This document shows positions 17,571-23,102 of a DNA stretch of 64,000 nucleotides, in pieces; position 1 is the stretch's first letter, and the number at the start of each line of letters is the position of its first letter. Origin of the DNA: Saccharomycopsis phalli (lineage: Eukaryota > Ascomycota > Saccharomycetes > Ascoideales > Saccharomycopsidaceae). Location of the stretch: positions 558,001 to 622,000 of the forward strand of contig CP073219.1 in NCBI GenBank assembly GCA_020342235.1, read 5' to 3'. The notes below the pieces were generated by a model. That model was given only the letters and a program-made list of their open reading frames with translations. It did not search any database and was not told the DNA's origin. The position numbers were made by a program, and so were the translations under genes.

Positions 17571-20039
17571 ATGAGCGAATCTTTTGGGGAATCAACTCCT
17601 GTTGAAATCGAGAGTCAAGAAATACCTGAAAAGCGGGGATTGTTGTCTAAAAATTTTAAAACAACTCTCTTCCTCGGTTTCAGTAGTTTGGGTGCCATTT
17701 ATGGTGATATCGGAACATCGCCGTTATATGTTTTAAATAGTATCTTCCCTGATGGACCTCCCTCCAAAAATGATTCCATTGGTGCAATGTCTTGTATCTT
17801 CTGGTTATTCACTATTATTGTTATTTTTAAATATTGCTTGGTTGTTTTATTCTTTGGCCCCAACAATAATGAAGGAGGCCAAATTGCCATTTATGCAAAA
17901 GTTGCGAGTCATCTTTCAATTGGTCCCAAGGGCGTTGCCATGAATAAAAATGATCTTTTAGCTTTTACCAGAAGTGAAACACATGATAGTTCTCATCTCT
18001 TTGAAAATGACGAGAGATCTAAGAAAATTCTGATGTTCAAGATTACTGGCGGACGATTCAACAAAACATTGGTTAACAAAATTCTTCCTGTTCTCATCAT
18101 GGGACTTTGTTTCTTTGGATGTGGCTTGGTCATCAGTGATGGATTATTAACACCTACAACTTCTGTCTTGAGTGCCATTGATGGTATTGCCGTGGCAGTA
18201 CCTTCGTTTGAGAACAAGGTTCTTCCTGTATCCTGCGTGGTGCTTTTTGTCCTCTTTATGATTCAAGGATTTGGATCAGGAAAGATCTCATTGATATTCG
18301 CGCCGATTATCTTTACATGGTTACTTATTCTTTTTTCTACAGGGGTGTTTAACATTATTAAGCATGACCCTGGAGTTTTCAAAGCTTTGAGTCCTGCAGA
18401 GGCTATTTTCTTCTTGAAGAGAAACAGAGGAGTGGACAAGTTTGGTGCCGTGATCTTGTCTATTACTGGAACTGAAGCAATGTTCGCTGACATTGGTCAT
18501 TTTTCCAGGCTCTCCGTTCAACTCACTTTAGGAACGTTTGTCTTCCCTTGCTTGATGATACATTATCTTGGACAAACCGCCTACTTGATAAAACATCCAA
18601 ATGACATCACAAATATATTCTACCTCTCAATCCCAGGCGGAACTAATTCGGCACTCTACTGGATTATATTTGTCCTTGCTACTTTGAGTAGTGTCATTGC
18701 CTCTCAGGCATTAATCTTGGGGGTCTTTTCGATCTTAAGACAGCTCATTTCCCTCGACTGTTTCCCAGGTTTCAAGATCATCCATAAGTCTTCAAGACAT
18801 GTGGGACAGGTTTACATTCCGACAATCAACTATATTCTCATGGTCTTGGTGATTTGCACATGCGTGGGTTTCAAAACATCCAATAATGTTACCGCAGCTT
18901 ATGGTCTTGGTGTGGCAATGGACTTTGTGGTGACAACACTCTTAATCACAATCTGTCTCATATATGTATACAAGGTCAACATATTTGTTGCGTTGTTCAT
19001 TCTCTGTGTGTTTGGGTCGTTGGAAATGTGCTTGGTGGTAGCCGGTATAAAGAAAGTGCCAGCAGGTGCATGGTTTACAGTCATGGTTACCATTTTGATG
19101 TTCCTGTTTTTCTGTTTCTGGAGATGGGGAAGAAGCTTGAAGATCAATCAAGAGTACAAGGACAGAATTAGAATTAAATCTGTTCTCGTTTCAAAGAAGC
19201 AGGGAATCGATAGCGACGGGGAGACTCAACTTAGACTCCTTGACAGAAGCACTATAGTTCTACAAGAGCATTATAATAGTCCGAAAGCTGATAATGAATC
19301 ATCGGAAGAAGAGTATGATAAAGCAAATTTCCTTGACCCTTACTACAATGTTAAATTCGGGACATCACAGTACAACTTGAACCGCTACAAGGGAATCGGT
19401 ATAATGTACACCAACATCACACACACATTGAATTCGGCGAATACTGTCCCTCGATTGTTTGAACAGCTAATCACCTCTTTCCCAAGTCTACCGACGAAAT
19501 TCATTTTCTTGGCTACTAGAGTTACCTCAGAGCCGTATATTGATCCTGCCGATCATATTATGATTGAGCGTATCAAGTCTGTGAATCATGGTGGCTTATA
19601 CCGATGTGTGATCATGTTTGGTTTCATGGATAAAGTGAAGATCACAAATAACACAATAAAACAAATTTTGGAGTCGATTGATGCAGAGGACTGCGATGAA
19701 GAAGTAGACTTGAGAAATACGAGGCATAGTGGAGATACTGCCAAGGGAGAAAAGAATGATACTCTTGACGCTGGTAATAGTAAGGTTATCAGATTGGATA
19801 CTAGAGTACTCCATATAGTCGATAAGAGCGTGATTCATGCAATGAAGTATGATCCTGTCTTATATGAGGACCATAATATCGTTGTTCAAGGATTTGCAAG
19901 AGCGAGGTACTTTGTGAAATCGTTTTTGATTGAGCATGTATTCTCTCCTATTAACGGTGTATTTGGAGGCTTTGAAAAGAACATTGAAGTACAAGACGAT
20001 AAAGAAGTGCTATTTATTGGTAGCAAAATTAGTATCTAA
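17571..20039 (+). CDS. HAK1: High-affinity K+ transporter, HAK/KUP family
   Basis: A protein of 822 aa with about 12 membrane segments and a long cytosolic C terminus (from about residue 520). The family signature GAIYGDIGTSPLYVLN is at residue 41. Other KUP motifs are GLVISDGLLTPTTSVLSAIDG, TGTEAMFADIGHFS and an NNEGG element in the first loop. HAK transporters take up K+ with protons when external K+ is low. They are found in Debaryomyces and Candida relatives but not in S. cerevisiae, which relies on Trk1/Trk2. The gene converges on the cysteine-rich gene that ends at 20115, with 75 bp between stops. Confidence 0.95.
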   Translation: MSESFGESTPVEIESQEIPEKRGLLSKNFKTTLFLGFSSLGAIYGDIGTSPLYVLNSIFPDGPPSKNDSIGAMSCIFWLFTIIVIFKYCLVVLFFGPNNNEGGQIAIYAKVASHLSIGPKGVAMNKNDLLAFTRSETHDSSHLFENDERSKKILMFKITGGRFNKTLVNKILPVLIMGLCFFGCGLVISDGLLTPTTSVLSAIDGIAVAVPSFENKVLPVSCVVLFVLFMIQGFGSGKISLIFAPIIFTWLLILFSTGVFNIIKHDPGVFKALSPAEAIFFLKRNRGVDKFGAVILSITGTEAMFADIGHFSRLSVQLTLGTFVFPCLMIHYLGQTAYLIKHPNDITNIFYLSIPGGTNSALYWIIFVLATLSSVIASQALILGVFSILRQLISLDCFPGFKIIHKSSRHVGQVYIPTINYILMVLVICTCVGFKTSNNVTAAYGLGVAMDFVVTTLLITICLIYVYKVNIFVALFILCVFGSLEMCLVVAGIKKVPAGAWFTVMVTILMFLFFCFWRWGRSLKINQEYKDRIRIKSVLVSKKQGIDSDGETQLRLLDRSTIVLQEHYNSPKADNESSEEEYDKANFLDPYYNVKFGTSQYNLNRYKGIGIMYTNITHTLNSANTVPRLFEQLITSFPSLPTKFIFLATRVTSEPYIDPADHIMIERIKSVNHGGLYRCVIMFGFMDKVKITNNTIKQILESIDAEDCDEEVDLRNTRHSGDTAKGEKNDTLDAGNSKVIRLDTRVLHIVDKSVIHAMKYDPVLYEDHNIVVQGFARARYFVKSFLIEHVFSPINGVFGGFEKNIEVQDDKEVLFIGSKISI

Positions 20040-20114
20040 TTATTTTAATATATTTGACTGCATTCTGCGCTGTATTTTAGCCACAGTAGTTACCTTCTCA
20101 AAGACCAATTTTCT

Positions 20115-20951
20115 CTAATAGTGCTTTGCTTTCCTCAAGTCAGTGCAAAGTTGAGTCTTTATAAGATCGAGTTTTGATTCAATACCAGGAACCTAGAAGT
20201 TAATATTGCAAAAATTTTAATAAGATTTTCATTCTTACATTGTCACACCATTCATCGCAATTTTCTTTGAGGTATTTCCCAAATTGGCATTTGCAGTAAT
20301 CGATAGATTCAAAGTATACGTTCACGCACTCGTCGAAATTTTCCTCGGCAGTTTTGTAACACCACTTAAAATCGCGGTGCTTTGGTTAGATTATATTGCT
20401 GGTAGCCTTTTGATGGAATACTCACACATTCATGGAAAAAAGATTTTGCATGTGGGTTACCCACGGATAATATTTTGATGTCATCAGACTCATCATAATC
20501 CTGAATTGTGTCAGAATTTGTGTCACAAGCTTCAGCCGTCAGCCTGCTGTAGTCAGAAATAAATTCCTGGGGTGTTACTACTTAGAATCTAAAATTGGCA
20601 CCTTATATCTTACCTCAGAATCGATATAATGGATGATGCATTTATTCAATGCGGTTTTGTAAAGTGCACAATTACAGTGAGCTTCACCATGGTGCAACAC
20701 GCAGTTGAGCCATTCTGAATTAGAACTGATGGAATCAAAACAATCGGAAAGAAGTTTTTGCTTGATGTGAGTGATTTCCAAATTACTATAAGCATCCTTA
20801 CATTTTTGGATTGAACAATCGACGTATTATCATTAGACTGAGGTAGCTGATCTGCGACCTTCATGATTTCTTGGGCCAACAACCTTCTTGACACATTTGC
20901 TGTAGTTAAATTAATTGAAATAATTGACAGAAGAAGATGTATAATTTTCAT
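20115..20951 (-). CDS. Cysteine-rich secreted protein A, multi-exon (family not recognised)
   Basis: The frame starts at 20951 with a likely signal peptide (MKIIHLLLSIISINLTTA). Confident exons are ...-20614, 20566-20426, 20379-20239 and 20192-20115. Introns of 47, 46 and 46 nt separate them, with donors GTAAGA, GTGAGT and GTAAGA, branch sites TAGTAAC, TCTAAC and ATTAAC, and all in phase 0. Two copies of a cysteine module are present: WLNCVLHHGEAHCNCALYK and ECVNVYFESIDYCKCQFGKY. The first 338 nt do not stay in one frame. The signal-peptide frame and the first module's frame are offset by one base near 20780-20830. I found no canonical intron there, so this is a sequence error, a real frameshift or a non-standard junction. 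Total length is about 232 aa. It is a paralogue of the gene at 21057-22116. Function is unknown. Confidence 0.65.
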
Positions 20952-21056
20952 TCCGGAAATTTTTTTTTGAGATAAGACAAGCGCTTAAAAAAAAATCAAA
21001 GACTGTGGTACAAGCACGATATGTCATATATGGAAAACCTAGTCATATATTGAAAG

Positions 21057-22116
21057 CTACCAAATCCATTCGCAATCATCGTCATAATCATTATAATAAT
21101 CATTATAATAATCATCACAATGATCATCATAATTATAGCCATTGTTGCAGTCATCATAATCATCGTAAAAATGCCAATGATTATGTCGATGAGGATAATA
21201 ATCTTTTGCACAACCATCACATAAAGAACTAATTAGCTCGTCAAATAGCTCCCATTGCTCCTCTCTATGTCTTAAAAATTTTCCCATCTGTTGGATTAGT
21301 ATGAACACGGCTGGTGTCATTTAATACTTACGCAGTCATCTTTGCACCTTTTCTTGAGCCCTTCGGCGAATGAGCATTTGCACCGTTCAACATCTTTGTT
21401 AACGTCCACGCACCAAAAGAATGTTTTTAGTTGGGACTGAAAGCATTGGGAAAAATGTTTTTTCTATAGATATTAATATTTTATTGAGCAACACATTGCA
21501 ATACTCACACATATCTCGAGCAATCGAAAGCTTGTATCTCCTCCAAGCAATTCAATTATAGGTGACCCCTTGGATGTTTCTTCCCAACTGTGTTCACCAT
21601 TGCACTCAGACTCAATACTAGCCACATCCTCGAAAATTGTATTGGTAACGCCGTAAACCAAGTCGTATCCTTTGGTGTCGTTTGTAAAAACTTGGCCTCC
21701 AAACAATCCAAACATGTCTGAAAGAGAGCTACAGCCATAAGAAGTGTAGCTTTCAGCCAAATACTTTAATGATTTATGCTAATTTATTAATGTGGGTTAC
21801 AAAAGTGATAAAGCTTACCTTGTGACCTTGGTGATTCTCAAACATATCTTTAACCAAAAACGAAATCTTGTGACAAAGATCCATCTTAAAATAGATGAGA
21901 TCTGAAACACTTGCGTGTGGTTGTATAAAGATCGGATAGGCCTAATGTGTCAATATCTATTAGCGGATTGTAACCTGTACTTACTTCCGAGCTATTACTT
22001 AGAGTACTGCTATGACTTAGAGTACTGCTATTACTGTAGTTTCCGATGGCCAAACAAGTTCCTGCCGAATACATCATACAGCCGAATAATAAATTCTGAA
22101 ATAAAATCATTGTCAT
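21057..22116 (-). CDS. Cysteine-rich secreted protein B, five exons (family not recognised)
   Basis: The exons are 22116-21985, 21941-21819, 21778-21509, 21463-21332 and 21287-21057, giving 295 aa. The four introns are 43, 40, 45 and 44 nt, all phase 0. Donors are GTAAGT, GTAAGC, GTGAGT and GTAAGT, and branch-like sites are GCTAAT, CATTAAT, TATTAAT and TACTAAT. A hydrophobic start (MTMILFQNLLFGCMMYSAGT) suggests secretion, and a Ser/Thr/Asn stretch follows. Exon 4 is the cysteine module (FWCVDVNKDVERCKCSFAEG), shared with gene A. Exon 5 ends in a tail rich in Tyr, Asp, His and Asn (for example NDYYNDYYNDYDDDCEWIW). The start codon is the first ATG after an in-frame TTG. It is divergent from TVP38, with 140 bp between starts. 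I do not recognise the family and propose no function beyond a probable secreted or surface location. Confidence 0.75.
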
Positions 22117-22256
22117 CAAATAATATTAGTTTGTGAACAGGTTCCACAAGCGTCATTTCATAGCTATATGTATGTCAAAGATTATGTGCACTGATGGCAT
22201 ATTGAGAATCGTTTGGGATCCAAACGGGATATCTGTCAACCAATATTTTTTTTTTA

Positions 22257-23102
22257 ATGTCAGTAGTTCGACGGACCTACAGAGAATTGACTGAGAAATT
22301 TAATGATGGGTATTATCAATTCTCTTTATGGTTCAGAGCTCAGTCTCGTATAAGACGAGTGGCAATATTAGGGGTGGTTGGGTTGGGTGCCGTTTTTGGG
22401 TTGGGACTTATTTTCTTTCACAAATCTATTCTTGCAAAATTTGTTGAGATTTCGGATGCCATTGAAAACTCACATTCAGGCAAGGCGATTCTTTGGTTTT
22501 TCATATTCATGGTGTCGTTTCCTCCATTGATTGGGTTTTCGGCATTGTGTACCCTAACAGGGATGGTGTATGGCTTGACTTTTCACGGATGGGCTTCTCT
22601 TGCATCTGCCTCGATCCTCGGATCTACTGCTGCTTTTGTATTATTCAAGTATCTACTATCTGAAAGAGCATTGCAGTTGGCTGAGAAATCACAAGGCTTT
22701 TCGGCGATAGCTGCGGTTTTAGGCCGAGACAAGAACAAATTACTTGTGTTGTCCTTGATCAGACTATGCCCTTTGCCATATTCGCTAACTAATGGCTGTT
22801 TGGCCAGTATTCCAGATCTCACTGTGCCCGACTTTTTCTTGGCGTCATTTTTCACGTCTCCAAAGTATCTTATACACATTTATGTGGGATACAAATTAAA
22901 GGATTTGGGTGAGGCAAAAGACACTACCGCAAGAATTATAGATGTCTTGAGTATTTTGGTAACGGCTATTGCGTCTAGCGTTACCACGTGGATAATATAT
23001 TACAAAACGAAGCAGCGATTAGACCTCTTAAATGGTGGTCTATCCGCTTCGGAAGATGAGTTGTATGATAACTTGTTGGACGACGGAAGTATAGAGGTTT
23101 AA
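22257..23102 (+). CDS. TVP38: Golgi membrane protein Tvp38 (VTT/DedA family)
   Basis: A protein of 281 aa with several membrane segments and the VTT (SNARE-associated) domain. The motifs SFPPLIGFSALCTLTGMVYG and RLCPLPYSLTNGCLASIPD mark it as Tvp38-type. S. cerevisiae Tvp38 is a late-Golgi membrane protein found with Tlg2-containing vesicles. DedA relatives are implicated in lipid scrambling. The ATG at 22257 follows a T-rich stretch. The C-terminal tail is acidic. Confidence 0.9.
   Translation: MSVVRRTYRELTEKFNDGYYQFSLWFRAQSRIRRVAILGVVGLGAVFGLGLIFFHKSILAKFVEISDAIENSHSGKAILWFFIFMVSFPPLIGFSALCTLTGMVYGLTFHGWASLASASILGSTAAFVLFKYLLSERALQLAEKSQGFSAIAAVLGRDKNKLLVLSLIRLCPLPYSLTNGCLASIPDLTVPDFFLASFFTSPKYLIHIYVGYKLKDLGEAKDTTARIIDVLSILVTAIASSVTTWIIYYKTKQRLDLLNGGLSASEDELYDNLLDDGSIEV

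Follow-up and report, generated by a model that had tools for sequence, protein, structure and literature searches.

Adjacent multi-intron genes for putative secreted eight-cysteine proteins in a probable Saccharomycopsis-like yeast

Two adjacent genes, A and B, were analysed in the window G000:C8:558001-622000, the whole 64,000-nucleotide stretch studied here, which lies within a 14.15-Mb genome of eight contigs. Both are placed on the minus strand, 105 bp apart (Table 1). The explanation favoured, with moderate confidence, is that they belong to an undescribed family of secreted proteins, and that both are functional and spliced and each built on an eight-cysteine domain. The gene structure exceeds chance, the core of the domain is homologous across the family, and the intron places match between gene B and the second of the two domain copies in gene A. 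As read from the sequence, the family comprises at least three genes with four domain copies.

Gene structure

The gene models were evaluated with a dynamic-programming gene finder that takes GTRAG donors, AG acceptors with a branch-like TNAY and introns of 35-60 nt at a penalty of 45 nt per intron, with 1000 dinucleotide shuffles of each gene as the null. Under the loosest branch rule the whole of gene B and introns 1-3 of gene A were rebuilt. Gene B scored 708 against 390 for the best shuffle and gene A 483 against 447, and none of the 1000 shuffles reached the real score in either case. The model of gene B was unchanged under stricter branch rules. These results confirm the closely spaced, same-strand pair of cysteine-rich multi-intron genes described in an earlier note on this DNA, and both are very probably real spliced genes. 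The note had counted four introns in gene B and at least three in gene A; both counts stand, and the intron at 20801-20761, which it missed, brings gene A to four. Intron 4 of gene A was missed by the gene finder and is supported by the homology of exon 5. The junction of intron 3 of gene A was found by the gene finder and is backed by alignment with the third family member, which is uninterrupted there; two splice junctions of the pair are supported by this member.

All eight introns of the pair are in phase 0 and 40-47 nt long, and the length of each exon is divisible by three, so that the reading frame would survive duplication or skipping of a core exon. Retention of any single intron leads to a stop within 5-52 codons. 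A further acceptor that keeps the frame would extend intron 2 of gene B to 55 nt and give a protein of 290 aa. Hydropathy, the sole signal-peptide measure used, peaked within the N-terminal 21 residues in all three proteins of the family. These hydrophobic stretches agree with the apparent secretion noted before, and the proteins are probably secreted. The tail of gene B (21057-21287, minus strand) is rich in His, Asp, Tyr and Asn, is encoded by low-complexity ATTATAATG-like DNA and looks derived from a simple repeat.

Multi-intron models were sought along 264 contiguous kb in 1618 windows, each of 1300 nt, and GTATG donors were accepted too; each window and strand contributed its single best model, which entered the list when it carried two or more introns and scored 300 points or more. 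Models with at least three introns were obtained for genes A and B only, in a scan that is blind to long introns and in which a long intronless open reading frame (ORF) could mask a small spliced gene in the same window. A TBCC-domain gene (window 54618 to about 53824, minus strand), which we take to be tubulin cofactor C, CIN2-like, has a 39-nt phase-0 intron of the same kind, so it is the intron density of the pair that is strange and not a single short intron. The best model of a protein-kinase-like gene (G000:C8:430919-432060, plus strand), which may resemble CK2 alpha, also has a short GTAAGT intron; a further intron in this model is possibly spurious. Secreted cysteine-rich orphans are common among fungi but rarely multi-intron in budding yeasts, and the pair is unusual because yeast genes rarely have more than one intron. 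Genes A and B each carry four introns inside about 1.1 kb or less; the published means are 0.17 introns per gene for S. schoenii (PMC13148404) and 0.25 for S. fibuligera KPH12 (PMC5106798).

Table 1. Features of the gene pair, the third family member and the flanking genes (window positions unless stated otherwise)
Feature	Position	Strand	Length	Description	Basis
Gene B	22116-21057	minus	295 aa	five exons, four introns	
Gene B exon 1	21985..22116	minus	132 nt	signal-peptide-like start	gene finder, N-terminal hydrophobicity maximum
Gene B intron 1	21942..21984	minus	43 nt	GTAAGT...ACATTAG, phase 0	
Gene B exon 2	21819..21941	minus	123 nt		gene finder
Gene B intron 2	21779..21818	minus	40 nt	GTAAGC...AAATTAG, phase 0	
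Gene B exon 3	21509..21778	minus	270 nt	last codon is first domain cysteine	gene finder, alignment
Gene B intron 3	21464..21508	minus	45 nt	GTGAGT...CTATAG, phase 0, immediately 3' of Cys codon	
Gene B exon 4	21332..21463	minus	132 nt	core exon of eight-cysteine domain, C2-C7	
Gene B intron 4	21288..21331	minus	44 nt	GTAAGT...TACTAATCCAACAG, phase 0	
Gene B exon 5	21057..21287	minus	231 nt	putative C8 (alignment), His/Asp/Tyr-rich tail, stop at 21057	gene finder
Intergenic gap B/A	20952..21056	minus	105 bp	upstream region of gene A	
Gene A	20951-20115	minus	218 aa	five exons, four introns	
Gene A exon 1	20802..20951	minus	150 nt	signal-peptide-like start	gene finder, hydropathy
Gene A intron 1	20761..20801	minus	41 nt	GTAAGG...ACATCAAG, phase 0	
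Gene A exon 2	20614..20760	minus	147 nt	weaker, first core-exon copy, C2-C6	
Gene A intron 2	20567..20613	minus	47 nt	GTAAGA...CACCCCAG, phase 0	gene finder
Gene A exon 3	20426..20566	minus	141 nt	possible C8 of copy 1, linker, C1 of copy 2	
Gene A intron 3	20380..20425	minus	46 nt	GTGAGT...CTAACCAAAG, phase 0, immediately 3' of Cys codon	
Gene A exon 4	20239..20379	minus	141 nt	second core exon, C2-C7	
Gene A intron 4	20193..20238	minus	46 nt	GTAAGA...TTAACTTCTAG, phase 0	
Gene A exon 5	20115..20192	minus	78 nt	C8 and C-terminus, stop at 20115	
Third member	L012 4350-4694 + 4732-4857 (G000:C1 about 1409849-1410356)	plus		two exons	
K+ transporter gene	17571-20039	plus		Pfam K_trans, flanks the pair	
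VTT-domain gene	22257-23102	plus		flanks the pair on the other side	

Gene B and the VTT-domain gene are divergent, with 140 bp (22117-22256) between their start codons. An Rfam scan at gathering scores gave no match, and a check for viral contigs confirmed none of 66 stretches.

The eight-cysteine domain and its family

The three-gene alignment gave the consensus C-x6/7-C-x10-C-x9/10-C-x-C-x9-C-x3-C-x15/17/22-C for three of the four copies. The cysteine spacings are 6,10,10,1,9,3,17 in copy 2 of gene A, 6,10,9,1,9,3,22 in gene B, which has one cysteine further on, and 7,10,9,1,9,3,15 in the third gene, counting the first of an adjacent CC pair. The cysteine module that the earlier note saw in both genes is thus extended through the third member, and the equal places claimed for its flanking introns were recovered for copy 2 of gene A and gene B. 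The core exon of genes A and B (132-147 nt) lies between phase-0 introns and encodes C2-C7, with C8 in the following exon; in copy 1 of gene A it encodes C2-C6 only, and C1 and C7 are missing. The C8 of gene B is a putative assignment made by alignment only. Pro and Gly together account for two to three of the 75-82 residues in each of three domains, and 43-44% of the residues belong to the set DEKRHQN. This composition suggests helices, and the domain is probably a small helical bundle with predicted disulfides holding it. The six-cysteine core pattern was matched twice only in the six frames of the 264 kb, once each in genes A and B; copy 1 of gene A fails the pattern.

The third member is located on a different chromosome from genes A and B, and it ends about 28 bp upstream of the likely start of COX13. 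Copy 1 of gene A compared with the core of the third member gave 10/1000 for the exon alone and 3/1000 for the domain. A genome search with the second domain of gene A returned all three genes, B at E 0.057. It is close to certain that they form one family. A hand-made consensus also returned all three genes genome-wide; these matches are circular because the consensus was built from the same genes, and only the lack of others is informative. As no fourth gene appeared, a wider family in this genome was rejected.

The ancestor may have been a secreted protein of one domain whose core exon lay between phase-0 introns. Duplication of the domain unit with its two introns inside gene A would have produced the two-domain form and doubled the intron number, which is the simplest account of the four introns of this gene. 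Gene B would share with A the second domain together with both introns of that domain, while the third gene would carry a single domain with the downstream intron only. The homology of copy 1 supports the internal duplication weakly. The earlier proposal that the family keeps introns unusually well is not fully supported, as the third member has one intron and exons 1-3 of gene B are not significantly similar to those of A; duplication of a two-intron domain would explain the introns of gene A more simply.

Search for relatives

The protein collection searched holds 5.8 billion proteins; only annotated ones that share five-residue words with the query can be retrieved. Gene A gave 163 word-sharing candidates and none at E 1 or better, and a three-gene profile, the one query that covered gene B, gave 3328 candidates and none at E 10 or better. 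For the control Cox13, of similar length and encoded beside the third gene, 180 of 231 candidates reached E 1e-10 or better, with many named yeasts among the 120 matches listed; yeast proteins are thus represented in the collection. Given these requirements of the search, any homologue that was overlooked probably lacks annotation. Pfam and PDB searches gave nothing significant for the family. A match to DUF6669 at E 0.073 was rejected; a genome-wide DUF6669 search was silent, as were all its controls, and is therefore uninformative. No description of an eight-cysteine family of this sort was found in the literature searched, which excluded supplements and most subscription papers. The family thus appears undescribed and matches none in the databases searched, which agrees with the earlier statement that it is unrecognised. 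The proposed lineage specificity is consistent with these negatives but not demonstrated by them, as they cover protein collections only.

Host genome and predation context

The Cox13 beside the third member is 79% identical over 92% to that of Saccharomycopsis crataegensis, the best named match among the 120 listed; the top match overall was 79% over 99%. Among the same 120, named matches of the Candida, Scheffersomyces and Metschnikowia type showed 49-55% and Babjeviella inositovora 65% over 73%. CTG codons are rare (3.8 against 48.6 per 1000 for TTG in 12 window genes), and none of the CTG sites tested for CUG-Ser decoding was decisive. The CUG-Ser affiliation suggested earlier is therefore plausible given the rarity of CTG, while the Cox13 identities speak against the Candida/Debaryomyces clade. 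ATP sulfurylase (PF01747) was silent in the genome, whereas 5 of 14 control genomes gave a match; PMC6508603 reports that S. schoenii, S. fodiens and S. fermentans have lost the ability to assimilate sulfate. An APS-kinase family match above the cut-off (27 bits, 298-aa frame; L025, G000:C5:1532283-1532711, minus strand) was observed despite the silent ATP sulfurylase and leans against a Saccharomycopsis-like host. The GC content is 0.42 in the window and 0.356 at 20001-22000; S. schoenii has 33.9% GC and six nuclear chromosomes (PMC13148404), and set against the eight contigs and the GC of the window found here this species itself was rejected. From one protein, Cox13, and one missing family, ATP sulfurylase, the host is probably Saccharomycopsis or a near relative.

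The predation promoter motif of S. schoenii is given as TTTCAACATGCA in PMC11392346. One match with three mismatches (22196-22207) lies upstream of gene B; the gap before gene A has none. The locus of the third gene has 22 matches against 17.1 expected, including two with three mismatches within 1 kb upstream of the gene, inside a neighbouring ORF. The motif was rejected as a lead, there being no enrichment.

Discussion

The proteins are most likely, we infer, extracellular binding or surface-active proteins, working either at the cell envelope or during contact with other fungi. The first part follows from the putatively secreted, disulfide-stabilised anatomy; the contact with other fungi is suggested by the lifestyle, and the predation motif lends it no support. 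Use against or on other fungi is possible but doubtful.

Several results weigh against the favoured explanation. The de novo margin of gene A is narrow and hangs on the loosest branch rule, since stricter rules returned an intronless 306-nt ORF as its best model (reached by 5/200 and 11/1000 shuffles). The third member, modelled with a single intron, is without the one upstream of the module. Copy 1 of gene A showed no significant similarity to copy 2 (161/1000) and a weak one to gene B (80/1000). Exons 1-3 of gene B showed no significant similarity to exons 1-3 of gene A or to the matching parts of the third gene, so that their homology was rejected and a one-to-one equating of all five exons is unjustified; exon 5 of gene B was likewise not significant against exon 5 of gene A (527/1000) or exon 2 of the third gene (455/1000). 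Genome searches with gene B, the third gene and the core of B each returned only the query itself, and gene A returned the third gene, not gene B. The predation motif was not enriched in the window (85 matches with at most three mismatches against 105.7 expected).

Decay of a known gene, or a chance joining of open stretches, could be read from the low GC of the region, the first half of gene B without counterpart, the loss of two of eight cysteines in copy 1 of gene A and the failure of the gene A model under tighter branch rules. Such an origin is very improbable, as no shuffle reached the scores, every intron is in phase 0 and the cysteines align across three genes; the check for a decayed known gene that the earlier note proposed gave no significant match to any known gene. 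A divergent branch of CFEM, that is, haem-binding proteins, secreted or in the cell wall, that are no longer recognisable by sequence, is the strongest family candidate because of the cysteine order: number and order are equal, with C4-x-C5 and three cysteines after it, and the C7-C8 spacings of 15 and 17 in two of the three genes stand beside 15 in L019, one of two CFEM genes above the cut-off in this genome. However, the CFEM model (PF05730) gave no match up to E 10 for the third gene, copy 2 of gene A, the domain of gene B or copy 1 of gene A, and similarity beyond the cysteines was absent from pairwise and profile comparisons with the genome's own CFEM domains, which recognise each other easily. 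The genome-wide CFEM search listed three places, two of them above the cut-off and none a family gene. Membership in CFEM was rejected on these tests, and a divergent CFEM branch is accordingly quite unlikely.

Fast-evolving effectors of a predatory yeast, directed at prey or competitors and keeping structure while losing sequence, would be analogous to the bicycle genes of aphids. The host is probably a Saccharomycopsis-like predatory yeast, no homologues were found in the protein database, the tandem genes have low mutual similarity and the exons of A and B are all symmetric. We hold this reading unlikely, as the published S. schoenii motif is not enriched, three genes and no expanded family were found, and killing may not depend on secreted killer toxins according to PMC11392346. 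There is only a slim chance that a predatory budding yeast holds a full bicycle-like effector family, with secreted disulfide domains on symmetric phase-0 core exons used on prey fungi. If true, such a family might be detectable across the genus by gene structure alone, and findable only so, because gene prediction geared to yeasts with few introns would overlook it. Under the favoured explanation of an undescribed secreted family, the pair, if real, shows how a lineage with few introns can keep or multiply them by duplicating domains, and warns that annotation may overlook secreted orphan genes of such shape.

Comparison with known systems

CFEM domains (PF05730; PDB 4y7s, Surface antigen protein 2) bind haem, with a haem-coordinating Asp, and their eight cysteines follow the order C,C,C,CxC,C,C,C, as do those of L019. 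This order is present in three of the four copies, with one extra adjacent C in one and an extra C after the eighth in another, and the secreted or surface setting is predicted here too. The general CFEM spacing is C1-x3-C2 and C5-x9-14-C6. The C1-C2 spacings of the family (6, 6 and 7) lie outside the former and C5-C6, at 9, inside the latter, whereas L019 has 3 and 11; the family domains are also poor in Pro and Gly. The domain may nevertheless act like a CFEM protein despite its sequence. L019 and L020 (G000:C2) are CFEM matches above the Pfam cut-off, one of them near PDB 4y7s at E 4.4e-35.

Plant non-specific lipid-transfer proteins have an eight-cysteine motif whose third and fourth cysteines form a CC pair, and the third gene fits this motif with C-x7-C-x10-CC-x8-C-x-C-x9-C-x3-C. 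The CC pair is present in one of four copies only, the family has an additional downstream cysteine, and lipid-transfer Pfam families gave no match up to E 10 for the four family queries. The family resembles the twin CX9C/CHCH proteins (PF16860 and relatives) in having C5-x9-C6 together with, in three of the four copies, C2-x10-C3, an arrangement that might fold as a helical hairpin; copy 1 of gene A matched at E 0.88, a non-significant 10 bits where the cut-off is 26.4. Each family copy has one CX9C, the other pair being CX10C in three copies and CX12C in copy 1 of gene A, and has extra cysteines; the hydrophobic N-termini suggest the secretory route and not the mitochondrial intermembrane space.

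Aphid bicycle genes, described in PMC9168663 as sequence-divergent effectors better recognised by gene structure, belong to an unrelated organism and a large family, against three genes found here. The likeness, drawn by analogy, would lie in divergent sequence with retained gene structure.
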